A stretch of 64,000 nt of DNA. Origin: Paenibacillus crassostreae. Lineage in GTDB: Bacteria; Bacillota; Bacilli; Paenibacillales; Paenibacillaceae. The notes beneath the pieces are model-generated. The model saw only the letters and a program-made list of their open reading frames with translations. It ran no database searches and was not told the DNA's origin. Below are positions 1 through 28,570 of this stretch, piece after piece (the first letter of the stretch is position 1; each line of letters opens with the position of its first letter). The DNA is taken from positions 310,001 through 374,000 of the forward strand of contig NZ_CP017770.1 of assembly GCF_001857945.1 (NCBI RefSeq). Direction: 5' to 3'. A program made the position numbers and the translations under genes.

Positions 1-30
1 TCCATCAGCCAGCGTTATATATCTCGACAT
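1..30 (-). CDS. partial cassette gene, 5' end only (MSRYITLADG...)
   Basis: An ATG at 28-30 on the minus strand is preceded by a strong AGGAGG ribosome binding site (38-43 on the plus strand as cctcct) at normal spacing. Only ten codons are inside the window, so the product cannot be named. Its position just upstream of a cassette boundary core (tcatctaac, 72-80) and its strand fit the next gene of the cassette array. Confidence 0.6.
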   Translation of the reverse strand, partial: MSRYITLADG

Positions 31-71
31 AATTTACCTCCTGGTTTTAAATAAAAACTCACTTCGTAATT

Positions 72-150
72 TCATCTAACGTACCCACATTTCTGATGTT
101 CGATCGGCTTAAGGTGCGTAGCACCGGGTCGTCAGCGCCTTCTTTGTAAT
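72..150 (-). repeat. attC-like cassette repeat A (right half degraded)
   Basis: It starts with the boundary 9-mer tcatctaac (72-80) followed by the conserved interior (ttctgatgttcgatcggctt, then a ccgggtcgtcag segment) seen in the other repeats. The right half, including the expected GTTATAGGA partner for the cassette that begins at 852-860, is not recognisable. The limit at about 150 is approximate. Confidence 0.6.
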
Positions 151-205
151 ACTCTCAACCTTAATTAACTTTAACTATCGTGTCCTATAAGTGCAACTAG
201 ATGCT

Positions 206-763
206 TTATTTTTGATAGCAAGTTTCATACTTGTCCTTCATTAACAAACTTTGACAAGCTAGACCATTTTCGTGATAAATCTCTTTACCTATCTCCAATT
301 CAATACTTCTATTGGAATTTGGATATTTAGGTTCTTCATTTACAATATATAGAGTATCTTCATCCTTCCACTCCATAACAAATTTACTTTTTGCATCACT
401 ATAATAAACAGTCTCGATTTTATCAAGCTCATCATTGTAAGTGATTTCTACCCATACATTGACACCACCAGCGGCACCACCATATGTCATATAGTAAGCA
501 TTAGCTGTATATTTTTCATTCGGTGAATCCACGGGTCCTTTGTAAAATTCACCCTCAAGGTTATTAAATGTAAAAAAGTATTGACTATATGCAAATAGTG
601 CAAAAACCACAATAATCCCTGTCAGAGAAGCAAATAGTAGCTTTTTCGGGAATAGTTTCCTTCTTGTAAAAAAAAAAAATAATTTTAAACAAAAAATGAT
701 AAAAATCAAAACAGTTAAGAGAAGAATTGAAAGACCAAATAAATTTAAATAAAGACCATTCAT
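206..763 (-). CDS. DUF5412-like membrane protein (cassette gene)
   Basis: 185 residues. Two hydrophobic segments lie near residues 8-30 and 42-62, and the C-terminal part is predicted to be extracytoplasmic. The region SPNEKYTANAYYMTYGGAAG, followed by an NVWVEI strand and a VMEWKDEDTLYIVNEEPKYP motif, matches my memory of the DUF5412 family of Bacillus and Paenibacillus, whose function is unknown. The start is an ATG with a weak GGAAG site. It sits alone between repeats A and B with no obvious promoter, as expected of a cassette gene. The name rests on recollection of the family motif; no biochemical role can be inferred. Confidence 0.75.
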   Translation of the reverse strand: MNGLYLNLFGLSILLLTVLIFIIFCLKLFFFFTRRKLFPKKLLFASLTGIIVVFALFAYSQYFFTFNNLEGEFYKGPVDSPNEKYTANAYYMTYGGAAGGVNVWVEITYNDELDKIETVYYSDAKSKFVMEWKDEDTLYIVNEEPKYPNSNRSIELEIGKEIYHENGLACQSLLMKDKYETCYQK

Positions 764-851
764 ATTTCTTCCGTTATTTGTTAAATTAACCTGCCTTAGC
801 TAAAAAACATCTATGAATAGTTATAAAGGGTTATCATGATGTGCGCTGAAG

Positions 852-1003
852 TCCTATAACTTTGCGCATTCCTAACGTTCAAGCGGCTTTAGGACCGCAG
901 AGGTCCGGGTGGCTCCGCCACTTAGCCGATTGGATGTGTCGCCTGAATAACCCCCTTGGAAATCCTTCTTGGCGATCAAGGGCGAATACGATGTTATCAG
1001 ATG
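852..1003 (-). repeat. attC-like cassette repeat B
   Basis: The left boundary 9-mer is tcctataac (852-860) and the right one is gttatcaga (993-1001). The interior carries the family elements: cattcctaacgttcaagcgg, a stem partner near cttagccgattgga, then tgtcgcctgaa and ggcgatcaaggg. The right 9-mer is the exact reverse complement of tctgataac at 2561-2569, the far end of the next cassette. It does not match the left end of the same repeat. On the minus strand the order is AAC core, imperfect hairpin, GTT core, as in an attC site. Confidence 0.8.
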
Positions 1004-1009
1004 TGATTG

Positions 1010-1357
1010 CCTTCTTCGAGTTACTCTACAACTCACTTCATTAATTACTTCATTTCTCTTCGTTCTTTACATTTCTTTATAAAATTCTACTCTGAATGCG
1101 CCGCAATCCCTTTGATCAATAACTAACCTAGAGTCGGTTCTTAAATTATTTACCATTTCCTAATCTTCATGTTTCATTAGGGCAACCTCGCTTGGAACAC
1201 AAACTAACTATGTATTTCAGATTTTACCATATTTACATTTCTTGTTGTATTGAACTATAAAAATATCCCTTTTTCTTAGCTAGAAAGTGCTTAGAAAAAA
1301 GGGATGTATTTTGCGTAGAAGATGCTTATTATATACGTTTAATAAATCGAACTTAAG
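1010..1357 (-). other. cassette 2 tail: possible decayed short ORF, then terminator
   Basis: No intact gene is seen. On the minus strand one frame (about 1210 to 1061) reads as two short stretches separated by a single TAG. The second stretch runs from an ATG through VNNLRTDSRLVIDQRDCG to a TAA. It may be the remnant of a small protein or chance. A rho-independent terminator for the ankyrin gene lies at 1264-1305. Confidence 0.3.
1264..1305 (-). terminator. terminator of the ankyrin cassette gene
   Basis: A hairpin with an A/T-rich stem of about 15 bp (ccctttttcttag against cttagaaaaaaggg) is followed on the minus strand by a T-rich tract. It lies about 50 bp past the ankyrin gene stop codon. 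Confidence 0.65.
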
Positions 1358-2413
1358 TTATCGCTTATAGACAGGCTGTTCCAGAGTAATAGGATTCGGA
1401 TTGCTGAGTACCCAATGCACTGACAGTTCGCACAGTCTCGCAGGTTCATCACTACCATTTCCGTTGTGAAGTTCTTTCGCTAATGTTACTGCCTCTTGAA
1501 GTGCAGCAGCATTTAATGGTGTGCCCAAGCTAAAGTAATGTATCAAAATATTAAGCATTTTACGATATTGATTATCCCAGTTGATACCGCCATTATCTAA
1601 AATTTCGTATGACACTTTACCTGTAATACGGATAACCTCACCCTGTACCGTTTTTGCATGTCCGTTTGAAGGAATGAGTAAATTCCAGAGTTCATTATGT
1701 TGCGCCTGCCAACCCTTTGTTGTTACTGTTATTGAAGAGGCACCGTCGTGCGTCTGTCGCTTCTCTACTGGAGGAACATCAAATAGCTCATATAGACGTA
1801 AAAGTGCCTCATCGGTTTGATTTAAATATTCTTTATTAAAGCCATCTCTGTGAAATTCAAAGTCGCTTCCAATTCGCTTAATAAAGTCTTTCATTTCAGG
1901 CGTTACTGTTGTTTCAGCGCTAAGCAAAATATCGGCAACTTCCGCCATATTGACAATATCCGCGTTTCTGCAACATGCCAAAGCTTTTACTAATGGAGTC
2001 TGTTTCATCTTATTTTCTGCATTGATATTTGCTCCTTTAGTAACCAACGTTTGAACCGCTTTTGGTTTAAATGAACCTACGGCAGCAAATAAAGGTGTCT
2101 CGTTTTGATAATCAATGGCTTCTATATCTGCACCTAAATCAAGCAGCAATTCAGTATTACCGCACCAACTTTTTGCATGTTCGTGCAAAGGCGTTTTTTC
2201 GTAATTGTCTCTAGCATTTATATCAGCACCCTGTTCCACGAGCCAGCGAACCAATTCATTCGGTATTTTGAAAAAGCTCAAGGCTGTTGATTTACTGTAA
2301 CCACCACGGGCATCCAATTCACATTGGGTAAATACCTCTTTTAAAGCTGAAATATCGTCCGTTTTAATTAGTTCATCAAAATTTTTCGGCAAAGTTTTTT
2401 TCTTCTTTCCCAT
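1358..2413 (-). CDS. ankyrin-repeat protein (cassette gene)
   Basis: 351 residues. A lysine-rich N-terminus leads into about four ankyrin repeats (residues 45-170), with motifs LVEQGADINARDNYEKTPLH, LLDLGADIEAIDYQNETPLF and LVTKGANINAENKMKQTPL. The C-terminal 180 residues have no motif I recognise. Ankyrin repeats mediate protein-protein contacts, so a binding or inhibitory role is possible but not shown. The start is an ATG behind a ggaggaaagt site. The gene fills cassette 2, whose 9-bp ends (993-1001 and 2561-2569) match perfectly. Confidence 0.85.
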   Translation of the reverse strand: MGKKKKTLPKNFDELIKTDDISALKEVFTQCELDARGGYSKSTALSFFKIPNELVRWLVEQGADINARDNYEKTPLHEHAKSWCGNTELLLDLGADIEAIDYQNETPLFAAVGSFKPKAVQTLVTKGANINAENKMKQTPLVKALACCRNADIVNMAEVADILLSAETTVTPEMKDFIKRIGSDFEFHRDGFNKEYLNQTDEALLRLYELFDVPPVEKRQTHDGASSITVTTKGWQAQHNELWNLLIPSNGHAKTVQGEVIRITGKVSYEILDNGGINWDNQYRKMLNILIHYFSLGTPLNAAALQEAVTLAKELHNGNGSDEPARLCELSVHWVLSNPNPITLEQPVYKR

Positions 2414-2560
2414 ATGTACTTTCCTCCTTACTTCAGAGTATATAAATTTTCTTGATCACCAAATACATTTTAGATTTTATCATCTTTTCTTTTAGTATTA
2501 AAAATTGCTCTTGAAATCAAGTTTCTAAAATATATTTTTAGACATTGTCCTACAATCATT

Positions 2561-2720
2561 TCTGATAACGTTCAGACATTTACGACGTTCCATCCCCTTA
2601 AAGGCCGTAGGCCTGGCTACAAATGCAGTTAGAGGAATGTGTCCGGCAATACTTCATCGAAAATTCTTACCCGGACCAAGGAGAGTCATCGACAATGCGT
2701 AAATGTGCTGTTATCCGATG
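2561..2720 (-). repeat. attC-like cassette repeat C
   Basis: The left 9-mer tctgataac (2561-2569) is followed by the variant interior (acgacgttcc, gtgtccggcaa, cggaccaagg), and the right 9-mer is gttatccga (2710-2718). The interior is more diverged than in E, H and I. The right 9-mer does not match the start of the next cassette (tcacctaac, 3511), so cassette 3 is not self-consistent. Confidence 0.75.
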
Positions 2721-2981
2721 ATTACATTCTAATTTCTTATAATCGTTAGAAAATTGTTCTTTGCAGTGGCATCAATTATCTGATTATTGGATTTACTTGC
2801 GGTATCACCAAGTGTATCAATGATGAGGCTTCAAGAGTTGTTTGCAGGAGCTTTGATCTTACGATCAATTTTCTTCAGTTTCTTCCCAAATTGCAAATTT
2901 TCCATAACCTAAAAACTCACGCACCTCAAGAACCTTACTGCCCCGTATAACAATTTCCATACCATTTTCAGAGTCCCATAC

Positions 2982-3476
2982 TCACACATCATCTTCAATG
3001 AATTCTGTTCTATTCGCTTTAATCCAATCATTCATTCTATTTATTGAAGTTTCCGAGCAATCAATATACTTATCATATAGCGCTATCACGTCATTCATTA
3101 GCCTTTTGTCATTTTCTAAATCCCTTTGATTTACTGTTTTCTTCAATCTATTTTGTTCCGCTATGAGGATCTCTATATCCTCTAATACTTCGGACAGAGC
3201 AATATTCTTAAAATAATTTAGTCCTTTTTTTATTCCATTCCATGATTTCAGTTCATTGATGTTATAAGCAGAGAACCAATAAAATTCTTCCAAGGTCTTT
3301 GTATGGTTATGAAAAGAATAAAATAAGTAGAGTCCCTTTTGCCCTTCGTTTAATTGGTTATACATGTCGGACTTGGCTGAGAGGTCCTTCCCCCGAACAG
3401 CTAACAACATCGGCTTTATACATAGCCAGCTTAAAGATTGGCTTTCAATATCTATTGGATTAAGTTTTACCCTCAT
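2982..3476 (-). CDS. hypothetical cassette protein, possibly cut by an in-frame stop
   Basis: 164 residues, mostly predicted helical; I do not recognise the family. The reading frame continues past the TGA at 2982 for 38 further sense codons to a second stop at 2865. The extension has good protein character, including MEIVIRGSKVLEVREFLGYG and FAIWEETEEN. This suggests that the original protein was about 203 residues and that a nonsense change (TGG to TGA, for example) removed its C-terminus. The start ATG has a gaggaga site upstream. The gene may be a recent pseudogene or a truncated but functional version. Confidence 0.6.
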   Translation of the reverse strand: MRVKLNPIDIESQSLSWLCIKPMLLAVRGKDLSAKSDMYNQLNEGQKGLYLFYSFHNHTKTLEEFYWFSAYNINELKSWNGIKKGLNYFKNIALSEVLEDIEILIAEQNRLKKTVNQRDLENDKRLMNDVIALYDKYIDCSETSINRMNDWIKANRTEFIEDDV

Positions 3477-3510
3477 TGAATTCTCCTCTCACTTAAGTTT
3501 TGCAGGAATT

Positions 3511-3612
3511 TCACCTAACGTTTCGTATTTCTGACGTCCTACCGGCTTAAGCTGTCTGAATGAACTAGCGAAGCGTTCAATCTTGACCGGGTGTCTCTGC
3601 CACTTAGCTGGT
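3511..3612 (-). repeat. attC-like cassette repeat D (right half deleted)
   Basis: The left 9-mer tcacctaac (3511-3519) and the interior (ctgacgtcctaccggcttaa to cacttagctggttgg) are present. The repeat then breaks off into a cttcttcgag segment that elsewhere lies beyond the right boundary (compare 1011-1020). The right core and its flank are missing, and the next gene ends only 17 bp further on. This looks like a deletion inside the site. Confidence 0.65.
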
Positions 3613-3628
3613 TGGCACTTCTTCGAGT

Positions 3629-4297
3629 TTACTTGTGCCAAATCATTGAATATCTCCATAATAAATGGATTTTAAATTTACTTGCTGGTAGAAGCTTAGT
3701 GTATACCTTTCTCAACTGATTAGTATCCATGTACTTATCATGTTTTAAATGTTCAATCCATGCTTCAATTTCTTCTTCTGTTTTTATCTTCTTACCTTTC
3801 TTCGTTATTAAATGGAATTTATTTAGTGGAATTGCAAATAAATTTAGCAAGTATTCAATCATTGTAGACTGTTCATATAAATCTAGAATTGCTATTACTC
3901 CATTAGGCTTAAGAGCTCTCCTTAGTTTAGGTAATATTTCTTCGAGTTCAAGGTGATGGAATACAGCAATAGAAACAATATAATCGTATGAGTTATCTTC
4001 TAGAGGTAGTTCCATAATGTTTCCGGTTTGATATATTATATTCGGAAATAATTTAGAGTGTTCAATTGCCTTTTGAATCATGACTGGAGATAAATCAATA
4101 CTTTCAACGCTCTTAACCTTTGTAGCTAGTATTCTAGAGAACTCTCCTTTACCGCATCCTATTTCCAATGCATTTATACTCTCATCAGGTATCTGCCTTA
4201 ATAGGAAATTGTGATAATGATTATTGTGATTCCATTCGTCATCATCCCCATTAGCAATACGATCAAAATCATTTTGTATTACTTCAGAATTATTCAA
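3629..4297 (-). CDS. class I SAM-dependent methyltransferase (cassette gene)
   Basis: 222 residues. The Rossmann-type SAM-binding motif I is ALEIGCGKGEFSRILA (about residues 38-53), followed by an acidic motif II (VESIDLSPVMIQKA) and a YDYIVSIAVFHHLE motif IV. The fold and motifs are those of Methyltransf_11/25-type enzymes; the substrate is unknown. The C-terminal part is rich in basic and aromatic residues. It lies between the broken repeat D and repeat E. The ATG start has an agggatga site. Confidence 0.85.
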   Translation of the reverse strand: MNNSEVIQNDFDRIANGDDDEWNHNNHYHNFLLRQIPDESINALEIGCGKGEFSRILATKVKSVESIDLSPVMIQKAIEHSKLFPNIIYQTGNIMELPLEDNSYDYIVSIAVFHHLELEEILPKLRRALKPNGVIAILDLYEQSTMIEYLLNLFAIPLNKFHLITKKGKKIKTEEEIEAWIEHLKHDKYMDTNQLRKVYTKLLPASKFKIHLLWRYSMIWHK

Positions 4298-4338
4298 TTG
4301 AACTCATCCCTTCAAAGTTTTTAAAGCTTTGCCATCTT

Positions 4339-4502
4339 TCACATAACGTTTGGCATTCCTGACGTTCAAGTAGCTTAAGTGACTGCAGGGAACAGGTCAT
4401 CAGCCTTAGCTGGTTGAATGTATCGCCTGAACTCATTTCTCTGATATCCCTCTTGGCGATCAAGGGCGAATGCCCGCAGTAAGTATGTGGTGTTATGTGA
4501 TG
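4339..4502 (-). repeat. attC-like cassette repeat E
   Basis: The left 9-mer is tcacataac (4339-4347) and the right one gttatgtga (4492-4500). The interior is one of the best conserved copies: cattcctgacgttcaagtag near the left, cttagctggttgaatgtatc in the middle, and ggcgatcaagggcgaatgcc near the right. The right 9-mer pairs exactly with tcacataac at 4951-4959, the other end of the next cassette. Confidence 0.85.
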
Positions 4503-4533
4503 CTCTCGGCTTCACTGAATTAACTTCAAATCA

Positions 4534-4893
4534 TTAGTTATTATTATGCTTTATTTCTTCTATTACTGAATATCCTTTAGATCTATCTTTACATGTCCAT
4601 TCCCATTCTTCAAAGATTCTTAATCTACCATCATCCATAAATTCTGGTATTGATTTACAAATACCTGTCATTATTTCTTTGTTTTCATTAATATGGTGAT
4701 ACCTCATATCTAAGCATCCATCTCCATCTACTACTGCAACTAAATGTCCCTTTACTACTCCGCCTCCTGAGTATTCTGCCCACACTGTATCTTCTTCTTG
4801 ATAGTAATGAAAAATTGTTTCTTGATTTACTTCACCATTTTCAGTGTTCTTGACTGTCTTGAAGATCTTGCTATTGTAATTAACTGGATTCAT
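4534..4893 (-). CDS. small hypothetical cassette protein
   Basis: 119 residues, beta-rich. Features include a GGGVVKGHLVAVVDGDGCLD stretch, MRYHHIN, and a C-terminal RIFEEWEWTCKDRSKGYS motif. Similar small Bacillota proteins are sometimes labelled N-acetylglutamate synthase in databases, but no acetyl-CoA-binding motif is visible, so I leave the function open. The start ATG (4891-4893) follows a gaggagtt site. The gene occupies cassette 5, whose 9-bp ends match perfectly. Confidence 0.7.
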   Translation of the reverse strand: MNPVNYNSKIFKTVKNTENGEVNQETIFHYYQEEDTVWAEYSGGGVVKGHLVAVVDGDGCLDMRYHHINENKEIMTGICKSIPEFMDDGRLRIFEEWEWTCKDRSKGYSVIEEIKHNNN

Positions 4894-4950
4894 AATAACT
4901 CCTCTGTATTCTCTAGTAATTTATTGATTTTATCCGATTTTCTGAGAGTT

Positions 4951-5133
4951 TCACATAACGTTTCCGTGTTCACGACGTCCATTCACCCTAAGCTGCACGA
5001 GTCCTAGCATGATCTCGGCCGGCCGCGATGCGGTTTTGGTGAATGGATGTGTCGCCTGAATCAGCCTCCCCGACTTATCATCTGGCGACCGAGGCGCTTG
5101 TCCAACGATACGTCAACACATTGTTATCTGACG
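4951..5133 (-). repeat. attC-like cassette repeat F
   Basis: The left 9-mer is tcacataac (4951-4959) and the right one gttatctga (5123-5131). The centre is longer and GC-richer than in the sister copies (a gatctcggccggccgcgatg segment), which makes this the longest site at about 181 bp. The right 9-mer pairs exactly with tcagataac at 5571-5579. Confidence 0.8.
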
Positions 5134-5164
5134 TTGACGGCATCTTCGAATACTCTTTCAAATA

Positions 5165-5518
5165 TTACTTACATATCATTAATATATTTCCATCAGGATC
5201 TTTTATATTAAACCAGTGTCCGTTTTCAATTTCTGTTATCAGTTCAATATTCATAGACTTTATGTATTCATAGGATTTTTCAATATCATCTGTAGCTAAT
5301 TGAACACTTGGAATCTTAAATACATTATCTGGTGAATATATCTGGCTGTCTAATACAATATTTGTCTTTCCTTGCATTGAAAGAACATAAATATGTCCAA
5401 AAAATATCTCTCCATCGTTTGGTAGGTTAAGTAGATTACAATACCAATCTCTGGCGCTTTCAATATTACTAACAGGAATGAATACTCCATTAATTAGGTT
5501 TTTTATTGGACTTGTCAT
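5165..5518 (-). CDS. VOC/glyoxalase-fold protein (cassette gene)
   Basis: 117 residues, a single vicinal-oxygen-chelate module pair. The N-terminal half has GVFIPVSNIESARDWYCNLL, and the C-terminal half ends in HWFNIKDPDGNILMI, the usual last strand with a metal-ligand-type region. Substrate unknown; the family includes glyoxalases, dioxygenases and antibiotic-binding proteins. I chose the ATG at 5516-5518 because a CGGAGG site lies nine bases upstream; the longer open frame would begin inside repeat G. The gene fills cassette 6, which has perfect 9-bp ends. Confidence 0.85.
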   Translation of the reverse strand: MTSPIKNLINGVFIPVSNIESARDWYCNLLNLPNDGEIFFGHIYVLSMQGKTNIVLDSQIYSPDNVFKIPSVQLATDDIEKSYEYIKSMNIELITEIENGHWFNIKDPDGNILMICK

Positions 5519-5570
5519 ACAATTATTACCTCCGTTTATTGATTTGATCTTTATATGTATTTCGTCAGTT

Positions 5571-5720
5571 TCAGATAACGTTCTTGTATTCACGAAACTC
5601 CTAGCCTTAGATTGCTCTTATCTTAGGCTGGGGAATTGGTTGTCTGAGCTTCTTCCATGATTATACCTCTGACAACCAAAGGGCGATAGCCCTGCAGCGT
5701 AAATACTATGTTAGATGATG
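5571..5720 (-). repeat. attC-like cassette repeat G
   Basis: The left 9-mer is tcagataac (5571-5579) and the right one gttagatga (5710-5718). The right core fits the classical GTTRRRY consensus. It pairs exactly with tcatctaac at 6419-6427. The interior is diverged (attcacgaaactcctagcct) but keeps the same symmetry and the gttgtctgagct and aagggcgatagccc segments. Confidence 0.8.
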
Positions 5721-5749
5721 TTGCTTCTTCTCCGAAATACTTATAACAA

Positions 5750-6388
5750 TTACTCTTTAAAATTCCATTCATCATAAAAGTGACTTAAATATTCTTCCAT
5801 AAATAAATGTCTTTTCTGCGCTATCTCTTTCGCATAATTCGTATTCATCAAATCCTTAATTTTCAATAGTTTTTCATAGAAGTGGTATATTGCCGTTTTT
5901 TCATTTGATCTGTAATCCATATTAGTATTATCTTGTTCCAAATTATGTATTTGCTGTCCTTTCCAACCCGAATATACAAATGTTCTAGCAATTCCTATTG
6001 CCCCTAAAGCATCTAGTCGATCAGCATCTTGAACAATTTGACCTTCTATTGTTTTCATTGGTTTGTTCTGTCCGCCATTATAAGACATTGTTGATATTAT
6101 ACTCATGACTTTATCTATACACTCTTTATCGTCTATATTCTGTATCATCCAATTCCGTACTTTATCTAATCCTGCTTGTTTTGATTCATTTATTTTTTCA
6201 TCAGCAATGTCATGAAGAAGTGCTGCCAATTCACATATAAAATAATCTGCCTTCTCGTTCTTTGCAATTTCTAGAGCTATATTTCTAACCCGATTACAAT
6301 GCCACCAATCATGACCGGATCGATCAAATTCTAGTTCTTCCTTCACAAAATTCTCCGCAAGTTTGATAAGAGCTTTATTGTTTTTCAT
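5750..6388 (-). CDS. HD-domain phosphohydrolase (cassette gene)
   Basis: 212 residues. The HD signature is complete: an N-terminal His with HDWWHCNRVRNIALEIA (about residues 26-42), the metal-binding pair in AALLHDIADEK (about 57-67), and a distal Asp in VQDADRLDALGAIGIAR. This arrangement matches YedJ/YpgQ-like nucleotide phosphohydrolases; the specific nucleotide cannot be read from sequence. The ATG start has a gaggtaga site. It is the only gene of cassette 7, whose ends gttagatga and tcatctaac are exact partners. Confidence 0.88.
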   Translation of the reverse strand: MKNNKALIKLAENFVKEELEFDRSGHDWWHCNRVRNIALEIAKNEKADYFICELAALLHDIADEKINESKQAGLDKVRNWMIQNIDDKECIDKVMSIISTMSYNGGQNKPMKTIEGQIVQDADRLDALGAIGIARTFVYSGWKGQQIHNLEQDNTNMDYRSNEKTAIYHFYEKLLKIKDLMNTNYAKEIAQKRHLFMEEYLSHFYDEWNFKE

Positions 6389-6418
6389 CTCTACCTCTTT
6401 TTCTGATTTTAGGCAATT

Positions 6419-6581
6419 TCATCTAACGTTTGACATTCCTGACGTTCAAGTGGCTTAAGTGACCGTAGGGAACGGGTCGTCAGACTTAGCTGCTTGAATG
6501 TATCGCCTGAATAATCTTCTTGCAAATTTTCCTAGCGATCAAGGGCGAATGCCCGAAGTAGGAATGCGGTGCTAGGTGATG
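6419..6581 (-). repeat. attC-like cassette repeat H
   Basis: The left 9-mer is tcatctaac (6419-6427) and the right end is gctaggtga (6571-6579). The interior is nearly identical to those of E and I. The right core reads GCT instead of the invariant GTT, and it does not match the far end of the following cassette (tcctataac, 7224), so this site may be disabled or rearranged. Confidence 0.8.
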
Positions 6582-6612
6582 TCACAGTCCTCTTGGATAA
6601 ACCTTATAAAAT

Positions 6613-7179
6613 CTAATCATTCCACATTCTTGTTACTACTTCTAATTCTAAGTCCTTGAATTGCATTTTATAGATATCTGGTTTCTTTAATTGATTCAAA
6701 AACTCCAAGCCAAAAGCTGGATCAAAATGATTCATCATCAAAGTCATTACAAGACCATGAGTCCCGATTGCTATTTTCTTCCCTCTGTGCTCTTTTAATA
6801 TGAGTTTTAGAACTGAGATTGCTCTTTTCTGACAATCAGCATTAGACTCTCCACCTGGCAAGGTATAATCAGGGACATTAAAACTCTCTCTGATACTAGA
6901 CATTAACTCTGCATTATCAATAATATAAGATCCAAAATGACGTTCTCTAAGATCTTCAAATACTTTAACATCTAACTTTAAGTGCTCGGCCAATCCCTCA
7001 ACACTAAGAATTGCTCGAGTATAAGGACTTGATATAATCATGTCTATTCCTTCATCTATAAGTAACTTCGTTACTTTTTCAATATCGATCTTTCCTTTTG
7101 GGGTAAGCCCTCTTATTCTTTCATTTCCTTCATTGTATGGTGATTCTCCATGCCTAATCATATAGATAATTGTCTTCAT
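6613..7179 (-). CDS. histidine phosphatase family protein (cassette gene)
   Basis: 188 residues with the phosphoglycerate-mutase-like signature RHGES at residues 9-13 (catalytic His10), a second catalytic His in AIGTHGLVMTLMM, an Arg in SSPYTRAILS and a Glu in ERHFGSY. These residues form the phosphate pocket of the clan, so phosphatase activity on a small phosphorylated metabolite is likely. The start ATG follows a aggaggcctgtATG-type site. It lies in cassette 8, whose two end sequences do not match each other. Confidence 0.88.
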   Translation of the reverse strand: MKTIIYMIRHGESPYNEGNERIRGLTPKGKIDIEKVTKLLIDEGIDMIISSPYTRAILSVEGLAEHLKLDVKVFEDLRERHFGSYIIDNAELMSSIRESFNVPDYTLPGGESNADCQKRAISVLKLILKEHRGKKIAIGTHGLVMTLMMNHFDPAFGLEFLNQLKKPDIYKMQFKDLELEVVTRMWND

Positions 7180-7223
7180 ACAGGCCTCCTTTAAATGCTT
7201 TCATTAAATGTCACACTGTGATT

Positions 7224-7387
7224 TCCTATAACGTTGAGCATTCCTGACGTTCAAGTGGCTTAAGGATCGTAGGTCCGGGTCGTCAGACTTAGCCGATTGG
7301 ATGTGTCGCCTGAATTGACTTCTCCGAATATCCCCTTGGCGACCAAGGAGTGTCAGCGACGATGTATTAATGTTTTGTTATCGGATG
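7224..7387 (-). repeat. attC-like cassette repeat I
   Basis: The left 9-mer is tcctataac (7224-7232) and the right one gttatcgga (7377-7385). The interior is highly conserved (cattcctgacgttcaagtgg, cttagccgattggatgtgtc, ggcgaccaagga). The right 9-mer pairs exactly with tccgataac at 7929-7937. Confidence 0.85.
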
Positions 7388-7425
7388 TTATTGCCACCAT
7401 GTATTACTATCAAATGAGTCAGTGA

Positions 7426-7899
7426 TCATTCCCAAGATGTGTATTCCTCTAAGAAAAAATCCCCTTCTATTTCAAGGATCGTCTTCGGTTTACTGTCATC
7501 ATAATAACTAATATCTATCGTTGTTCCACTCCATTGAAGAAAAAAGACCCCATTACCTCTATACTCCAAGTTTATTAAGTTTTCATCTACATCTTGATGT
7601 TCAAAATAATACAATCTAGCATCCAGGTCTTTATTTTCTTCGTTATATCCTTGCGAGAGTTCAAACGATCTAGTCCCAAATTCATTGAGTACTAACTTAT
7701 CAAGATATATTGTAACTTCAGCATTTGGATTCATTGCGAAATTAGCAGTATCTTCAACCGACATAATAGCTTGAGAGTCTGTCTCAGTTTCAAACCACAT
7801 CATTATTGTTTCATCAGCTCTACGAACAACATAAGCCCTTGATTCTAATAGTTTAAATTTCTCAGTTCCATTAAAACGTTTAAGGGTCATAGTACCCAT
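7426..7899 (-). CDS. hypothetical cassette protein
   Basis: 157 residues, predicted mainly beta, acidic, no signal peptide. Stretches such as RAYVVRRADETIMMWFETET and GNGVFFLQWSGTTIDISYYD suggest a compact beta-sandwich or barrel, but I recognise no family. The ATG has a good AAGGAG site seven to eight bases upstream. It is the first gene of the array, next to the decayed recombinase, and its cassette ends (7377-7385 and 7929-7937) match perfectly. Confidence 0.7.
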   Translation of the reverse strand: MGTMTLKRFNGTEKFKLLESRAYVVRRADETIMMWFETETDSQAIMSVEDTANFAMNPNAEVTIYLDKLVLNEFGTRSFELSQGYNEENKDLDARLYYFEHQDVDENLINLEYRGNGVFFLQWSGTTIDISYYDDSKPKTILEIEGDFFLEEYTSWE

Positions 7900-7928
7900 A
7901 ATATATTCTCCTTAAATTTGCAATAATT

Positions 7929-7990
7929 TCCGATAACGTTCGCACATTACCAACGTTCAAGTAGCTTAAGTGACCGTAGGGAACGGTATA
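7929..7990 (-). repeat. attC-like repeat J, left half, fused to recombinase remnant
   Basis: The left 9-mer tccgataac (7929-7937) and the first part of the conserved interior (caacgttcaagtagcttaag, then a gaccgtagggaacgg segment) are present. The right half is absent: sequence from about 7990 merges into the end of the recombinase remnant. This marks the outer boundary of the array. Confidence 0.7.
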
Positions 7991-8017
7991 CCGCTCTGTG
8001 CTTCACACACTCTGGTG

Positions 8018-8310
8018 ACCAAGTAATTCCTGGATGTAACGATATTAATCCCATCCTTCATAAGATAAGTCGTAAAGGAATGTCTCCATACATGACAACT
8101 GACATCCTTAATAATTTTGGCTTCAGCTAGTGCTTTGAGCTAATCGTCTGATTAACATGAGCGTGGGAATGACTCCTTTTTAGCATTGAAAGTGTAAATT
8201 ACTGCACTGCCAAATATATAGTTACTCGTATGCGCAGACTCAAGAGTATAGGTGTAAAAACGTTCCACTTATGATATGTCTCGCTCTTTACCACCGCACC
8301 TTTCCAGACA
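8018..8310 (-). pseudogene. decayed tyrosine recombinase, integron-integrase-like C-terminal part
   Basis: On the minus strand, pieces of a tyrosine recombinase catalytic domain appear in order but in different frames. First is a GGKER-like strand (8281-8295), then HVNQTISSKA, then LAEAKIIKDVSCHVWRHSF continuing TTYLMKDGINIVT, then after a one-base frameshift QELLGHQSV, followed by TGA. The box II pattern HxxRHSF and the LLGH box are diagnostic of the superfamily. The VSCH lead-in and the spacing resemble integron integrases more than XerC/D. The catalytic Tyr segment and the N-terminal domain are missing and several frames are broken, so it cannot be active. It lies on the same strand as, and immediately upstream of, the cassettes. 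Confidence 0.7.
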
Positions 8311-8404
8311 GACACCGAGCTCTTTTTTATACAAAAACAACAAAATAACTTTCCCGTAAATTTATTCCTTTTAGTATAACAGCCATTCACATATATGGAC
8401 ATTG

Positions 8405-8570
8405 ATATATAAAAAGGCCCTAAGATGATTGCTCATCTTAAAGCCCTATACTTCGGTGGAGAAATACTCTCCCTTATCGAATTTCACAACTACCCTTTCC
8501 TCACTCAAACAAGTGCCGGTGCCTATCAAAGCACCTCACCAGCTCATTAATATGTTTAGCTTAGGACATA
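8405..8570 (-). ncRNA. possible structured leader with intrinsic terminator, unknown class
   Basis: On the minus strand a GC-rich, hairpin-forming segment (gaggtgctttgataggcacc; an aagggagag arm opposing ctccaccgaag) ends in a clear terminator-like hairpin (ggctttaagatga against tcatcttagggcc, 8413-8445) followed by a T-run. The GAGGTGC and ACCGAAG motifs loosely recall L-box-type RNAs, but the remaining consensus is absent and no biosynthetic gene follows. Downstream lies only the recombinase remnant. It could be an orphaned riboswitch or simply the terminator region of the upstream serine hydrolase gene. Confidence 0.35.
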
Positions 8571-8581
8571 TCTACAACACT

Positions 8582-10387
8582 CTAAACATACAAATTCCAT
8601 CCCACAATAAAAGCAGCCAATATAAAAGCCGAGATGCCAGTTATGATGTACATAACCTTTTGCTTTTTGCTGTAACTGCTCTTCCACAGTTTGTAAATAA
8701 GCAAGCCAAGATACGCCACTGCTAGAACCACATAAAGCAGGTTAAACATTAAATTGATGCGTAACGAAGAATAAGCGGGAAAACTTTGAAACCTTAACCT
8801 CGTGTGTATGATGAAAAGATTAAGAAGGAGTAAGACACCTGCAAAATTAATTGCAAGATGATATTTATCAAACTTGGTTGGATGATTTCCTCGTTTATAT
8901 AGTTTGTAAAGAAGCATCCGGATTAAATAGCCGATCAAAGCACATAAACTGAAAATGATGGCTAGCGCAACAGGAATAAGAGATATCTTAATTAAGTTTA
9001 CCTTTAAATTCGATACAGGCAAGAAATCAATATAAGGGGTGACGGAAATTTTCTCAACAACACCATTATGCTCGACAACATTATAAAAACTACTTAACTC
9101 AGCTTTTGTGTATTTTGTTATGTCAAGTGCTGTAAATAAGTCAGTAAATCTAGAGGCTGCCCGTCGTGCGGATTGAAAATATCCTCCCCCCTCCGAAGTA
9201 ATTGAATTAGAATACATAGTACTACCAAAAATTTCTTTAATAAGTCCATAATAATAAATTTCTTCAAAAGACTGGTTTGTCATTACCACCATCCCAAATT
9301 TAGATTCTGGATCAAAGACAAGTTTACTTGAAAATCCTTTTAAATTCCCCTCGTGCATCAGTGTAGGTACCCAGTATTCCATCTCAACGAACCCATGCGC
9401 AAATCGAGGAATAGAAGTCCCGTCATAGTATAGACTTGTTGACAACATTTCGTTTAGCGTATCCCTGTTCGTAAATAATAAATTATTATCATCCACAGGC
9501 ATCAGCGCTGCAAGGAATTTCGCTAAATCCTCTGCTGTTCCAATGGCTGCCCCTGTAGGATAAAACGTTACGTATACTCTGTTCTGAGGGATCAGTTTCA
9601 AATCTTTAGTATACCCTTCAATCTCATTCCTTCTTTGTACTAAATCTGGATGATCTTGCCCCGTTGGATGAATCGAGGTGTCGTTCATATTAAGCGGTTT
9701 AAATATATGTTGATTGACATATTCATAAAAAGGTTGGTCGCTTATCAATTCCACGATGTAACCGGCTAGACCAACGCCATAGTTAGAATAACCCACTATG
9801 CTATTCGGTTTATATATCTGTTTCGGTTCATTTTTACGCAAAGTTTCTCCTAATTCTAAAGTTTCATTCTCGGAATAATAGAACACCTCGGCCATTGTTT
9901 GATCTTCCCAACCCGCATTGTGATGCATCAGGTTCAAGAGGGTAATTGGATCATCATATTTCAGCTTTTTGAAAAATCCCTCTGGCAAATATTCCTGGAT
10001 ATCCGTCTCCAAATCAAGCTTTCCTTGTTCGACAAGCTGCATCACACTCGTATAGACCAACAGTTTAGAGATGGAAGCCCATTCAAAAACAGTAGAGGTA
10101 TCCGCCTTTCGCTGATTCTCAATATCTGCGTAACCATATGCCTTATTCACAATAGTTTCACCATCTTTGATAACCACAATCGAAACGGCAGCGGTATACT
10201 TCTCATACGAGGCAACATAAGCATCAATCGTTTCCTCTAACTTGGATAAAGGAATCCTAGATGGTGTAGTCTCAACCTGTTCTTCTTCAGCGTGGGCAGG
10301 TACTGCTATTGCCATAATGATAAATATGAATGACAGAACACAAGCAATTACTTTGTTTACAGTGTGAACACTACGATCTTTCTGCAT
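8582..10387 (-). CDS. membrane-anchored beta-lactamase-fold serine hydrolase
   Basis: 601 residues. A signal sequence ends at about AHA33. The beta-lactamase/PBP4*-like domain (residues 50-400) carries the nucleophile motif S105-I-S-K108, the second motif Y200-S-N202 and a late HEG motif (near residue 343). C-terminal to it are about 100 residues and then at least three transmembrane helices (about 480-600). This layout belongs to the class C-related Bacillota serine hydrolases (FmtA/PbpX/EstB-like), whose substrates may be D-Ala esters, peptides or small esters. Extracytoplasmic action is expected. The ATG start has a aggagag site. No neighbour suggests a pathway. Confidence 0.88.
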   Translation of the reverse strand: MQKDRSVHTVNKVIACVLSFIFIIMAIAVPAHAEEEQVETTPSRIPLSKLEETIDAYVASYEKYTAAVSIVVIKDGETIVNKAYGYADIENQRKADTSTVFEWASISKLLVYTSVMQLVEQGKLDLETDIQEYLPEGFFKKLKYDDPITLLNLMHHNAGWEDQTMAEVFYYSENETLELGETLRKNEPKQIYKPNSIVGYSNYGVGLAGYIVELISDQPFYEYVNQHIFKPLNMNDTSIHPTGQDHPDLVQRRNEIEGYTKDLKLIPQNRVYVTFYPTGAAIGTAEDLAKFLAALMPVDDNNLLFTNRDTLNEMLSTSLYYDGTSIPRFAHGFVEMEYWVPTLMHEGNLKGFSSKLVFDPESKFGMVVMTNQSFEEIYYYGLIKEIFGSTMYSNSITSEGGGYFQSARRAASRFTDLFTALDITKYTKAELSSFYNVVEHNGVVEKISVTPYIDFLPVSNLKVNLIKISLIPVALAIIFSLCALIGYLIRMLLYKLYKRGNHPTKFDKYHLAINFAGVLLLLNLFIIHTRLRFQSFPAYSSLRINLMFNLLYVVLAVAYLGLLIYKLWKSSYSKKQKVMYIITGISAFILAAFIVGWNLYV

Positions 10388-11006
10388 CAGCTACTCTCCT
10401 TCAACATCAAATAATAAGATCAGATCTAACTCATCTTCCTCAGCATATTTCGATAAGAAATACTGCCGAATCAATCTCACTCCATGCTGAAGTCAAGGTG
10501 TTTTAAGAGTGCACATTAAAATTTGTTCATTAAGTTATAATCTACGATTCTCCATCACTCTGTTTTTGGCAAGATTTGTTTTGCCACTTCCTTAGATTCA
10601 TAGAATACAGGTCTACCTTCAGGCGAATTCACCTAATCGCCTTCTATAGAGTGATAGACGAGGCTCTTCATTATCTACAACCTACTTTGTCAGCAGATCA
10701 AGTGAACTCTGGAAGCAAAGGATATCTTCGATACTGCCATGAGTGTAGATTATGCGTATATTCCTATTCTATTTCTTCCCCGCATCGATATCTTGCGGTC
10801 GCAAGCCTTCCCAAATATTGGGCATGTCCACCAATTCAGGATGTTCTCTTTGTCACTTTTCTATTGTTAGCCGAAGTTCGACTAGGAATTGATGTAGAAC
10901 CCATTAGATATTCCCCGACTCTGTTGTTAATCTCACTACTCATCTAAACGAAAAGTCTGGGTGAAAAAGTTTCTCTTCTAATGTTTTCCTTGAACCTCAC
11001 CCTTGT
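10388..11006. other. about 620 bp without a convincing gene
   Basis: No ORF with protein-like character and a ribosome binding site is seen. A 123-codon plus-strand frame (10576-10947) lacks a plausible site and has unlikely composition. On the minus strand a short stretch around 10560-10640 reads VNSPEGRPVFYESKEVAKQI before a stop and may be a remnant of a degraded gene. Confidence 0.4.
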
Positions 11007-15073: not shown

Positions 15074-15556
15074 CTATTTTGTAATAAGGATCGACGATGT
15101 ATAAGTTACAAATTGTTCCTTAATATCACCCTTCTTAATCCAATGGTTACTCATTCCTCGGTAATAATAACCTTTTGTTACATCCCAATCTGCTTTACCT
15201 GTGAAATTATCACTTAGCGTGGTCGATAATACTGTACTTTTAATGGTAATCCAATCTTTCCCTGTCCATCGCTGTATAGATACGTCAGCCCCTAAAGAAC
15301 TTACCGTTTCGTAAGCAACTGTTGTTGCATTGACTCGTACCTTCAGATTACCCTGATCCGTAATCGTGCTTATACCATCAAACAAATAAACAAAACTCGG
15401 ATTTATTTCTGTTACCTTTATTTCCTCTTTAGGAGGTGGAGTTGTAAGTGCTCCCGATACTTTCGTATCATCAGCACCCACCTCAAGTGCAAACATCATA
15501 CTCATTAATGTGACTAGCAAAGTAACGGTTAACGATTTCTTGAAAGACTTGCGCAT
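15074..15556 (-). CDS. secreted protein, DUF6147-like
   Basis: 160 residues. A signal peptide (basic start MRKSFKKS, hydrophobic core to about residue 27, ending near EVGA) is followed by a beta-rich domain of 130 residues with VSIQRWTGKDWITIKS and GYYYRGMSNHWIKKGDIKE. This pattern matches small secreted Bacillota proteins grouped as DUF6147, recalled from memory; function unknown. The ATG start has a gaggagtt site. Monocistronic. Confidence 0.65.
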   Translation of the reverse strand: MRKSFKKSLTVTLLVTLMSMMFALEVGADDTKVSGALTTPPPKEEIKVTEINPSFVYLFDGISTITDQGNLKVRVNATTVAYETVSSLGADVSIQRWTGKDWITIKSTVLSTTLSDNFTGKADWDVTKGYYYRGMSNHWIKKGDIKEQFVTYTSSILITK

Positions 15557-25924: not shown

Positions 25925-27013
25925 TTACACATCATCGCCATCCAACTCATTCTGAGTCTGTAGGAGTCGTTCAGAAACCGTTCGAAAACTTTCTGGTTGT
26001 AATAATTCAACGGGTGAGTAACTTTTATCAAATGTAAAGGCGTCTCCTTCGATAATAACAGCATATCCATCGCGTAGCTTTGTAAGATGAATTTTGTCAC
26101 CGTAATCGGCTAGGAAGCCTTTTATAAATGTTTCTCCCAGTTTGAACTTGATTTCGATTTCCGGCTTGATCTCAACAATTCGCTCTGCTGCCTCCACCAC
26201 TTGCTCTGGCTCCCACTTTTCCTGCAAATTTCGTTTGTCACTCGCAGCCCAGAGCTCTAATTCACGTTCTTCTTGGTGACGTTCTTCTTGGCTAGCATCC
26301 GGCCATTTAGTCTCTACATACGTCTGAACAAATTCCATCACATGCTCATTTACGATCTCTGGAATGGATTGTTCATAAGTTACAAACTTCAAGAAATCTT
26401 CGAAATATCGGGCATGGGATGATTGATGGATTTTAAGTTCCCATTCCTCTATTATTCCCTCTTCTGGCATATAGGGATACTGAATAGATTTAATATTTCG
26501 GGCGTTGATCGCCATTTCAACCTGACTTACTAAATTCCGTTCATCAGATATCCGTGCTATTTTCTGTTCGAAGTCACATTTGAGCACGAAAATAAATGGA
26601 TCATCTGAATGAGTAGACAATACCGCTTGAATGATAATCAATGCTCCACCGCGAACGGAACTTGTATCTAGGTAACTGCGGATTAGATCATCACAAGCAT
26701 TCTTATAGTCTTCTTTATTATCCACCAAGCGAAGTCTAGTAAATAGATTATAGTTAGGATTACTATCTAATTCATGACCTGGTTCAACAATAAAACGACC
26801 AATTTTGGTCGGAGGCTGCTCAGTATTCGGATTCTTCTCTACCTTCCGTTTGGCCGTTCGTGCGAATTCTCCATCGAGAAATTTACTGATTTCACTATCC
26901 ATATATTCTTCACTGTCTAGCGTTTGATAATGTTTATAGTTCTTAATGGTCTGACCTTCACGGCTTTCGACTTGTATCACAAAGAAAGATAAGTGCTGTA
27001 CGTTAAATCGCAT
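25925..27013 (-). CDS. DUF3900-like conserved protein
   Basis: 362 residues, cytoplasmic. The start MRFNVQHLSFFVIQVESREG, the DLIRSYLDTSSVRGGALII segment and the acidic C-terminus (FDKSYSPVELLQPESFRTV) match my memory of DUF3900, a Bacillus/Paenibacillus family of unknown function; nucleoid-associated proteins share some of the layout. The ATG has an aggggttc site. Dif-like site 2 lies 160-190 bp upstream. Confidence 0.65.
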   Translation of the reverse strand: MRFNVQHLSFFVIQVESREGQTIKNYKHYQTLDSEEYMDSEISKFLDGEFARTAKRKVEKNPNTEQPPTKIGRFIVEPGHELDSNPNYNLFTRLRLVDNKEDYKNACDDLIRSYLDTSSVRGGALIIIQAVLSTHSDDPFIFVLKCDFEQKIARISDERNLVSQVEMAINARNIKSIQYPYMPEEGIIEEWELKIHQSSHARYFEDFLKFVTYEQSIPEIVNEHVMEFVQTYVETKWPDASQEERHQEERELELWAASDKRNLQEKWEPEQVVEAAERIVEIKPEIEIKFKLGETFIKGFLADYGDKIHLTKLRDGYAVIIEGDAFTFDKSYSPVELLQPESFRTVSERLLQTQNELDGDDV

Positions 27014-27172
27014 GTTGAACCCCTTTTATAATGTAATTTCTATATAATTCCGCAGATACGGATTTTCTAAAATGATTGTTCAATTAATATATTGGATATA
27101 AACAGTTATCGCAAGACAAATATTATTGGGATTTTACTAGAAAATGGGTTTGATAGTAAAACTATTTTAGTT

Positions 27173-27200
27173 GGTTTACATAACAAATATTATGTTAACC
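27173..27200 (+). repeat. Xer/dif-like site 2, next to the recombinase gene
   Basis: Left arm GGTTTACATAA, spacer CAAATA, right arm TTATGTTAACC. The arms are inverted repeats matching at 10 of 11 positions. It begins about 48 bp past the recombinase stop codon. Confidence 0.65.
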
Positions 27201-27247
27201 ATTTTCAATATATGTCCAATTATTCTATTTATTTCGGACATATTTCA

Positions 27248-28171
27248 TTAGTTCATAGAGAATTCAGGTAATTCTAATGTCAATTTCGACATTGCTTCCT
27301 CCTTCTCTCTACTTGTGATATGTGTGTAAACTGTCGTAGTCTGAATAGAAGAATGTCCTAGTAATTCTTGAACTGTACGTAAGTCTGCCCCTTTACGAAG
27401 CAGCATCGTTGCAAACGAATGTCGTAATTTATGGCTTGAATATGGCATCCGATTCATTACTGGTACATCATCTTGAAACCGAGCAAACGTATCCGAAGCC
27501 GCTTGCTGGATCGCACGAATCGATAACCGTCTTCCTTTTTGCGAGATGAACATGGCCGTTTCTTTATTACGTTTAGGTAACAACCTCTCTGCGATAGCAA
27601 GTTCCAATACAGGACAGACAGATTCCGGCACGGGTATAGTTCTCCACTTACGCCCTTTCCCGAATACACTAAGTAATCGTCGTTCCAGATTGAAATCAGC
27701 GATGTCAAGGGTATGGACCTCTCCCACACGAAGCCCCATGTAAGCCATTAACAGGAAGATCGCAAGATTACGATTACGGTACTTCCCATCAACTGCATTG
27801 AAGAATTTGTTCATTTCAGATTCCTCTAAATATACAGGTGCGCGGTTCTTATCCGTTCTAGATTTCTTAATATCTTGCGCTGGATTTACATTATGTAGTT
27901 CTAATTCGATCAGAGCTTTGAAGAAACAATTGACAGAAGCGTGCTTTCGATTACGTGTAGCATCACTCACGCCACGTTCTCGTACTGATGATAAATAAGA
28001 TACAACATGAAATTTCTTAACATTTTCTAACGTTTTACCACCTAGCGAGTCCAGAAATTCATTCACATCAGATAGATATGACTTTTGTGTATGAACCGTG
28101 TAACCAGCATCTTTCATCCAAATTAAAAAGGCTTCCAGCGCTTCTTCGTAGTCTTCGTTCATATCCATCAC
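27248..28171 (-). CDS. tyrosine recombinase, Xer-like
   Basis: 307 residues. The N-terminal SAM-like core-binding domain (about 8-100) precedes a catalytic domain with a complete active site: Arg148 in MGLRVGEV, Lys173 in GKGRKWR, His247 and Arg250 in HKLRHSF, His273 in LLGHSS and nucleophile Tyr282 in TVYTHI. Nothing indicates inactivation. It starts with GTG or the following ATG, behind a GGAGG. It follows gerPE by 39 bp, in the place where gerPF is usual, and lies next to dif-like site 2, its likely target. It could be a chromosomal dimer-resolving Xer protein or an element-specific integrase. Confidence 0.88.
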
Positions 28172-28210
28172 GCCTTCACCTCCATTTCATCCTTCAGACA
28201 AATCATTGTA

Positions 28211-28570
28211 TCATAGATTTGATCTACTGACCTGACTTCTCAGATTAATAGTGCCGTTGTTACCGATTTGAAAGGTCGTACCGGTGGAAATCGACAATAC
28301 TTTGACCTGCTTCAACGTAATCAATGATTCTGTTGGAAGGATCTGAGCCTCAAACTCATCAGCATCATAATCTCTAACAATACACCCTAAGAATGGTTTT
28401 GCATAATGAGGTACGTCCCTATGATCTTTTTCCTGTTGATGTAAGTTAGGAGTGGTCTTTTCTCTTCGTTCCATAGAACTAGACCTTATACTACCAACAT
28501 CACCATTAACAAATATAGAACTATTAGAAATGTTATTTATATAAACATTGTGAATTTTAGAATTTTTCAT
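28211..28570 (-). CDS. gerPE: spore germination protein GerPE
   Basis: 119 residues. The N-terminal NVYINNISNSSIFVNGDVGS and the C-terminal VKVLSISTGTTFQIGNNGTI are two copies of the short GerP-type beta motif, as in GerPE of Bacillus. GerP proteins are coat-associated and help germinants cross the spore coat. It is fifth in a tight operon (4-bp spacing to gerPD) and the last gerP gene here; gerPF is not seen. Confidence 0.85.
   Translation of the reverse strand: MKNSKIHNVYINNISNSSIFVNGDVGSIRSSSMERREKTTPNLHQQEKDHRDVPHYAKPFLGCIVRDYDADEFEAQILPTESLITLKQVKVLSISTGTTFQIGNNGTINLRSQVSRSNL

Follow-up and report, generated by a model that had tools for sequence, protein, structure and literature searches.

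The window considered here is a stretch of 64,000 nucleotides from the chromosome of Paenibacillus crassostreae (C1:310001-374000; genome 4.76 Mb), the left end of which holds a row of genes separated by repeats resembling the attC sites of integrons. A profile search finds ten attC-like repeats, three of them partial, spread over window positions 70-7987, the number already given in a first-pass annotation of the sequence. Between them lie nine whole open reading frames (ORFs) on the minus strand, of unrelated kinds (Table 1): according to Pfam they encode DUF5412, ankyrin repeats, a methyltransferase, a glyoxalase fold, an HD domain and a histidine phosphatase, and three have no Pfam match. 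That annotation had listed ten unrelated genes; they are indeed unrelated, the count falls to nine, and a further gene may have its end in the opening bases of the window. For the glyoxalase-fold gene, the listed GTG start falls within a repeat, and the real start is likely further in. The row (array B below) continues to the left past the window edge, where the profile finds more copies at C1:308538-308705 and C1:305343-305447. At its other end, the head, lies a broken remnant of an integron-type integrase, interrupted by stops, in which parts of the SAM-like domain (N-terminal) and of the HxxR region (C-terminal) can be recognized; it is encoded on the strand of the cassettes and overlaps the last half repeat. 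With ten repeats and this remnant as the sole trace of an integrase, the row may correspond to the definition of a cluster of attC sites lacking integron integrases (CALIN; at least two attC sites without an integrase), and it is a decayed, headless member of a larger system. Our reading, to which we give a probability of roughly 0.88, is that the row consists of integron-type cassettes, likely moved by a family of tyrosine recombinases separate from IntI.

Table 1. Repeats, cassette genes and integrase remnant of array B, in window positions
Feature	Position	Strand	Cores and partners	Basis
attC-like repeat, partial, R' side only	70-135	-	core TCATCTAAC on the plus strand	profile match, ends
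Cassette gene, DUF5412 (PF17428)	206-763	-		ORF, Pfam
attC-like repeat, complete	852-1004	-	right core GTTATCAGA at 993	profile match, ends
Cassette gene, ankyrin repeats	1358-2413	-		ORF, Pfam
attC-like repeat, complete	2559-2720	-	left core TCTGATAAC at 2561, partner of 993	profile match, ends
Cassette gene, without Pfam match	2982-3476	-		ORF, Pfam
attC-like repeat, partial	3509-3639	-	right core lost	profile match
Cassette gene, class I methyltransferase (PF08241)	3629-4297	-		ORF, Pfam
attC-like repeat, complete	4337-4502	-	GTTATGTGA at 4492	profile match, ends, folds
Cassette gene, without Pfam match	4534-4893	-		ORF, Pfam
attC-like repeat, complete	4949-5133	-	TCACATAAC at 4951 (partner of 4492), GTTATCTGA at 5123	profile match, ends
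Cassette gene, glyoxalase fold (PF00903)	5165-5593	-		ORF, Pfam
attC-like repeat, complete	5569-5721	-	TCAGATAAC at 5571 (partner of 5123), GTTAGATGA at 5710	profile match, ends
Cassette gene, HD domain (PF01966)	5750-6388	-		ORF, Pfam
attC-like repeat, complete	6417-6582	-	TCATCTAAC at 6419 (partner of 5710), right core GCTAGGTGA	profile match, ends
Cassette gene, histidine phosphatase (PF00300)	6613-7179	-		ORF, Pfam
attC-like repeat, complete	7222-7388	-	GTTATCGGA at 7377	profile match, ends
First cassette gene at array head, without Pfam match	7426-7899	-		ORF, Pfam
attC-like half repeat	7927-7987	-	TCCGATAAC at 7929, partner of 7377	profile match, ends
Broken remnant of integron-type integrase, array head	7937-8207	-		TIGR02249 match C1:318026-318136; tblastn pieces

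Searching the source genome with a single repeat of the window (that at 6417-6582, used as a 168-base query here and in the same-genus search) gave matches in 40 places, and an iterated profile found 95 repeats in the fetched regions, some of them counted twice since the two ends of C1 overlap. The assembly is terminally redundant, repeats at about 5.8-37.5 kb recurring at about 4592.7-4624.3 kb, which inflates the counts for arrays near the contig ends unless the duplicates are removed. Three arrays can be distinguished on C1: array A (6-79 kb), array B (305-318 kb, the one in the window) and array C (2149-2175 kb). Array C, whose 33 repeats span 25.7 kb with a median spacing of about 740 bases, is a fuller integron in the same chromosome.

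The first-pass annotation had proposed that the cassette, and not the repeat, is the unit whose ends match, pointing to five cassettes with exactly complementary 9-bp ends. All five pairs are present, and among the complete repeats of the window only that at 4337 has two ends that match each other, as the annotation had also stated. Over arrays A-C, exactly complementary 9-mer ends occur in 30 of the 56 cassettes shorter than 3 kb (shuffle control: mean 4.0 matches, standard deviation 1.8, maximum 13 in 10,000 shuffles); of the repeats, 8 of 58 have ends that match each other. Co-variation of the 9-mers extends to other genomes, where 177 of 288 cassettes match exactly (shuffles: 12.5, standard deviation 3.4, maximum 27 in 2,000) and ends of the same repeat match in 25 of 307; this set includes two loci, L166 and L235, that overlap on one contig. 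Ordinary intergenic repeats, be they repetitive extragenic palindromic (REP) sequences, miniature inverted-repeat transposable elements (MITEs) or RNA elements, would share with these repeats that they are structured and mutually similar, and the end matching would then stem from hairpin constraint or gene conversion. Such an origin seems to us extremely unlikely, as ends match rarely within a repeat and often within a cassette, the units shared between loci (see below) comprise gene plus repeat from core to core, and no Rfam family matches window positions 1-9000 at E<=0.1. We therefore rejected the REP or RNA element reading on the cassette-wise matching and the lack of an Rfam match in that segment.

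The comparison of cassette genes covered 333 cassettes, L166 being omitted as a copy. An ORF of at least 50 codons is found in 322 of them, and in 296 of these 322 the longest ORF runs in the cassette sense. The 322 proteins form 259 clusters, of which 220 are singletons and 32 are present in at least two genomes. Fixed gene order between the repeats, named beforehand as an observation that would speak against mobile cassettes, is not what we see between species: where homologous cassettes of two genomes are both followed by a further cassette, the next cassettes are homologous in none of 58 pairs. At the DNA level, 45 cassette pairs, within or between genomes, are similar over nearly their full length, with identities reaching 99.6%; among them, the ankyrin cassette of the window (993-2569) has a full-length counterpart in another genome (G022, locus L220) that is 93% identical, with identical ends. 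Crossover points were mapped in 10 near-identical pairs among 299 complete units. At the left boundary (n=10) the variable core letters of the neighbour differ and agreement starts at TAAC; at the right boundary (n=7, outer flanks unrelated) it runs through the CGT of TAACGT and then drops. The shared unit ends inside the core, again in favour of the cassette as the unit, and, judged from these alignments, cassettes have moved as units at the TAACGT core.

Array C starts right behind a tyrosine recombinase of 386 amino acids, encoded on the strand of the cassettes and called the integrase below. Its first cassette ends in TCAGTTAAC, from which the other end is predicted to be GTTAACTGA; this 9-mer is indeed found, 79 bases behind the start of the integrase stop codon and with a hairpin before it, and the repeat profile has no match at this attI-like site. 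An attI-like core of this kind, matched exactly by the distal end of the first cassette, is present in 21 of 41 distinct recombinase loci, in each case 36-164 bp behind the start of the integrase stop codon and with cassettes and integrase on the same strand. The 41 loci were obtained from 54 rows (28 with a core) by removing duplicates by hand, and include two rows, one in the window region and one in L223, whose recombinases are probably of other kinds. Named genomes were also scanned with the integrase alignment; of the best 80 loci, out of more than 80, 13 show core and partner, and in those 13 loci 49 upstream cores gave 2 chance partners. In a phylum-wide sample, 20 loci have 600 bases or more downstream; core and partner were found in 11 of these, in L259 probably by chance, and upstream controls gave 0 of 18. 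At six loci (L191, L193, L198, L200, L207 and L213) several CGAAGTTCG-type palindromes or variants precede the attI-like core; they are possibly binding sites of the integrase.

By function, the system is very likely an integron. It has cassettes of a gene plus an attC-like site whose ends restore R' and R'' on circularising, different genes between the sites in an order that varies between genomes at the species level, and, at some loci and not at every one, an attI beside the integrase gene with the same core. End matching, neighbour shuffling and core-bounded units likewise uphold the central proposal of the first-pass annotation, an integron-like cassette array in a Bacillota chromosome.

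The best NCBIfam profile for the integrase is TIGR02249 (integron integrase), with 216.9 bits against a cut-off of 265; none of five relatives tested reaches the cut-off either (L121 219, L139 211.1, L161 208.2, L159 207.6, L119 183.3), and IntI1 scores 507.5. On NF040815 (XerA; cut-off 220) the integrase has 213.3 bits, L121 (228.4) and L161 (227.0) pass, and L159 (214.5), L139 (213.6) and L119 (198.2) remain below; some relatives (P0037, P0078, P0082) bear the name of this model in databases. The XerC and XerD scores, 185.4 (cut-off 335.15) and 180.6 (cut-off 329.6), place it in neither of these equivalogs. Its best PDB match is IntI4 (2a3v), aligned with a gap where IntI4 has the additional domain. 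The interval from the lysine motif to the block before HxxR is 33 residues in the integrase and 32-33 in nearly all rows of the family (28 in L116; L111 and L149 not judgeable), whereas IntI1, IntI4 and six other IntI have 73-74, i.e. the IntI additional domain of about 41 residues is absent from the family. At its N-terminus the integrase is in turn extended by about 100 residues that have no counterpart in IntI4 and that may stand in for the additional domain. Six residues matching R, K, H, R, H and Y, which we take to be the catalytic ones (the tyrosine of the integrase being residue 361), are invariant in 23 sequences, as befits a tyrosine recombinase, albeit one without the IntI domain and below the IntI cut-off. 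A quick maximum-likelihood tree of 100 rows (8 IntI, 89 of the family including the recombinase of an IS91-family element, and three other recombinases of the source genome; eight recombinases that were short, broken or oddly long were left out by hand, and L137, which has no open segment, is also absent) gave support values (SH-aLRT, Shimodaira-Hasegawa-like approximate likelihood ratio test) of 93 for the IntI branch, 93 for the family branch and 97 for both versus the three others. The family and IntI thus appear as sister clades, provisionally, since the outgroup consists of three recombinases only and their branches are long. TIGR02249 and IntI4 would also be the expected top matches if this were a canonical IntI integron whose integrase had diverged, and thus simply one more case of the known family. 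We find this very unlikely in view of the score below the cut-off, the length of the interval and the separate clades; insert length and profile scores rule out the canonical type, and by these tests the system is not an IntI integron.

As to distribution, 35 of 100 genomes of the genus have a repeat match and 29 have the integrase (E<=1e-30); the two coincide in 19 genomes, against an expectation of about 10 (Fisher p=7e-5). In all nine named Paenibacillus loci among the best 80, copies of the repeat lie downstream and all point the same way. Outside the genus, the Paenibacillus repeat profile has one fair match, in L120 (a Bacillus metagenome-assembled genome (MAG), E=1.8e-7); its matches in L108, L159 and L167 are weak. 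Repeats detected de novo number at least three downstream of the integrase in 25 of the best 80 loci; where 5 kb are available on both sides, this is so downstream in 20 of 29 loci and upstream in 2 of 29, and in L151 and L180 the integrase is flanked by repeats upstream as well as downstream. At the 15 countable loci outside Paenibacillus, cassette ends match in 32 of 49 pairs of consecutive repeats versus 11 of 298 non-consecutive ones (p=1e-23). The best cases are Flavobacterium terrisoli (7/10), F. enshiense (6/8), Arundinibacter (3/4), the spirochaete Brucepastera (4/4) and Halanaerobacter of the Bacillota (3/4); Polaribacter and Paludibacter reach 2/2. Two Nitrospirota MAGs, L117 and L124, are weak (consecutive 1/2 each; other pairs 2/4 and 1/4), and the downstream repeats of L107 (0/1) were discarded as cassette sites and look like something else. 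In the phylum-wide sample of 398 genomes, 24 genomes, from 20 of 266 genera, have the integrase at E<=1e-60. The arrangement of integrase, attI and array, in order and direction alike, is shared by Paenibacillus and other Bacillota with Bacteroidota and a spirochaete, although some integrases lack it, and the system reaches beyond Bacillota. A match to the integrase family is also present in L111, a MAG labelled as an Undinarchaeales archaeon, where it may reflect a binning error or a transfer.

Canonical attC sites have an R stem, an unpaired spacer, an L stem and a variable end, and their bottom strand folds better. For the repeats described here (183 after removal of 9 redundant ones from 192), the consensus fold of the bottom strand has 16 pairs and that of the opposite strand 0; pair counts on the 41 best-scoring repeats give 29 pairs on the bottom strand. 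Outermost in the predicted structure is the stem at the core (TAACG/TGTTA); then come an asymmetric spacer, the second stem (GCATT/AATGY) and a pair of inner hairpins. As predicted, the repeat would have the attC layout with a larger, branched end. Cells changed on both sides of a pair number 36, versus 12.3 (standard deviation 6.6) after shuffling, with 0 of 500 shuffles as high. Folded singly with DNA parameters, the bottom strand (complementary to the genes) does better in 143 of 183 repeats (p=3e-18).

Taken together, these observations are most likely explained by a second lineage of integrons that has an integrase family to itself, the row in the window being a decayed array of this lineage. 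The integrase family would recombine attI with the attC-like repeat; as with IntI, the latter would serve in single-stranded form, with its bottom strand folded. In the mechanism we propose, the bottom strand of a cassette would fold by way of the R stem, the spacer, the second stem and the two inner hairpins, the integrase would cut at the core and a cassette circle would form, which on re-insertion at attI would become the first cassette of the row; passage through a circle is suggested by the matching ends. The array in the window would then be a remnant with a decayed integrase, and the open copy at C1:2176 kb could still act on it. A wider statement, that a second class of integrons spans Bacillota, Bacteroidota and Spirochaetota and that its integrase never had the IntI additional domain, we hold to be probable, with considerably less assurance.

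Several findings weigh against integron-type movement by this family. The integrase lacks the very domain that the literature calls necessary. No attI core with an exact partner was found in 20 of the 41 distinct loci, and of the best 80 loci only 13 have one and only 25 have at least three downstream repeats, many of the contigs being short. Within the genus, many copies of the integrase gene are interrupted by stops or fragmentary, and decay of the head, as in the window, therefore appears to be common. No LexA-like box was detected with simple patterns in the 54 rows, over 700 bases counted back from the beginning of the tblastn match rather than from the true start codon, nor with a strict pattern at the integrase gene, the genome having 4 such sites versus 8 for the control. 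On the structural side, covariation was counted on the same alignment that had predicted the fold; the alignment consensus with DNA parameters favours the other strand (-2.57 versus -0.82 kcal/mol); and single bottom-strand folds of two repeats are moderately better than shuffled (z -0.93 and -2.30). Ten of the 29 integrase-bearing genomes of the genus have no repeat by the single-sequence query, although one of the ten, G012, shows 6 repeats by profile. Conversely, 16 of the 35 repeat-bearing genomes have no integrase at E<=1e-30, a figure that would also suit recombination of the cores in trans, by the host XerC/XerD or by an occasionally acquired canonical IntI, with the neighbouring recombinase as a bystander; Xer and IntI are related enzymes. 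We judge this unlikely, though the least so of the alternatives: no protein of the source genome passes the IntI (TIGR02249) cut-off, end-matched arrays beside the integrase start in distant taxa at the core just behind it and in the same direction, and genomes without the integrase are compatible with decay or with an integrase on another contig.

With IntI integrons (class 1; the Vibrio superintegron), whose features are in part general knowledge, the arrays share tandem cassettes in one direction, palindromic attC sites with GTT/AAC cores, cassette-wise end matching, an attI at the head and an adjoining tyrosine recombinase. The crossover at the core is shared as well, and the better folding of the bottom strand may be (for the attC core and bottom strand of IntI integrons, see the relevant passages of PMC4792948). 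They differ in the absence of the additional domain, in the N-terminal extension of about 100 residues, in the co-directional integrase and cassettes, in the absence of a LexA-like box detectable with simple patterns and, in Paenibacillus, in the mostly GTTANNNGA cores and in sites of 150-200 bases with two inner hairpins.

Published surveys, cited here from individual passages, have taken the additional domain as the mark of an integron integrase. It was used to select integron integrases in PMC2426708, which cites the study of Messier and Roy 2001, whose title calls it necessary, and it serves as the definition of IntI in PMC9668308, which likewise treats it as required. PMC4792948 discusses the specific domain, a Xer-like ancestor and whether the domain was the key step. 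According to PMC8138268, the insertion is not fully conserved in an "integron-like" subgroup of simple tyrosine recombinases, yet essential; the passages of that paper cited here contain no attC arrays beside members without the insert. NF040815, which is named "site-specific tyrosine recombinase/integron integrase" (XerA of archaea) and which L121 and L161 pass, is silent on arrays. The spirochaete integrons with reversed intI in PMC9668308 are likewise unusual in how integrase and cassettes are oriented to each other, but the enzyme of Brucepastera (L159) lacks the insert that the relevant passage makes the definition of IntI. Firmicutes and Bacteroidota are among the phyla listed with integrons in PMC8618304. 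In IntegronFinder 2.0 (PMC9024848, in the part cited) complete integrons are extremely rare in Firmicutes, with one case and a few CALIN; the known Bacillota integron was called with the integrase profile of that program, which the systems described here would presumably fail. The array in the window resembles a CALIN, as characterized in the same source, in that no whole integrase stands at its head, and differs in that a broken remnant of the family integrase persists and that an open copy with a longer array is present in the same chromosome. Some of the Firmicutes CALIN mentioned there could be arrays of this kind. Paenibacillus is mentioned in papers on saliva integrons (PMC4909258, PMC7691350). 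Among the matches listed, in a search that extended neither to preprints nor to most subscription journals, no paper was by its title or the opening of its abstract on Paenibacillus or Flavobacterium integrons, nor was there one on insert-less integron integrases with arrays.

As surveys select by the IntI domain, arrays of this kind were likely missed or seen as orphan sites, and cassette-based gene exchange in Bacillota and Bacteroidota is maybe undercounted. If a second class of integrons does exist, the capture of folded single-stranded cassettes would be independent of the additional domain, and would either be older than it or have arisen twice. A related family without the domain at the head of arrays makes the origin of integron integrases from Xer-like enzymes, and the part of the additional domain in it, testable. 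It might also provide a new pair of recombinase and site for Gram-positive laboratory hosts.

Array A holds IS91-family elements at about C1:8448-10880 and 26124-28384 (L021, L022; L005, L007), which carry a tyrosine recombinase of 286-293 amino acids. They end at attC-like cores (TGTT followed by GAACTAAACCGC on one side, CATCACATAAC on the other), as if the element used attC cores as targets. The location of their ends, and the position of their recombinase within the integrase family in the tree, would agree with the arrays having been spread by this element and its own recombinase. We give this next to no credence: in the 15 loci of the source genome, the only genome searched for it, the element end sequence occurs twice, both times in array A, and is absent from B and C. 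The small recombinases near array A (L005, L007) were also considered as integron integrases and dropped, as L005 adjoins an IS91-family transposase (NF033538, 449.7 bits) and the elements sit at cores.

The window contains a second tyrosine recombinase (307 amino acids, L003) at 27248-28171 (C1:337248-338171), about 19 kb from the array, whose TIGR02249 score is lower than that of the array C integrase. Finally, contig C4 (87,693 bases; L091) carries one complete repeat and one partial one, at 10241-10404 and 15324-15451; it may be a plasmid and a possible vehicle carrying cassettes between cells.

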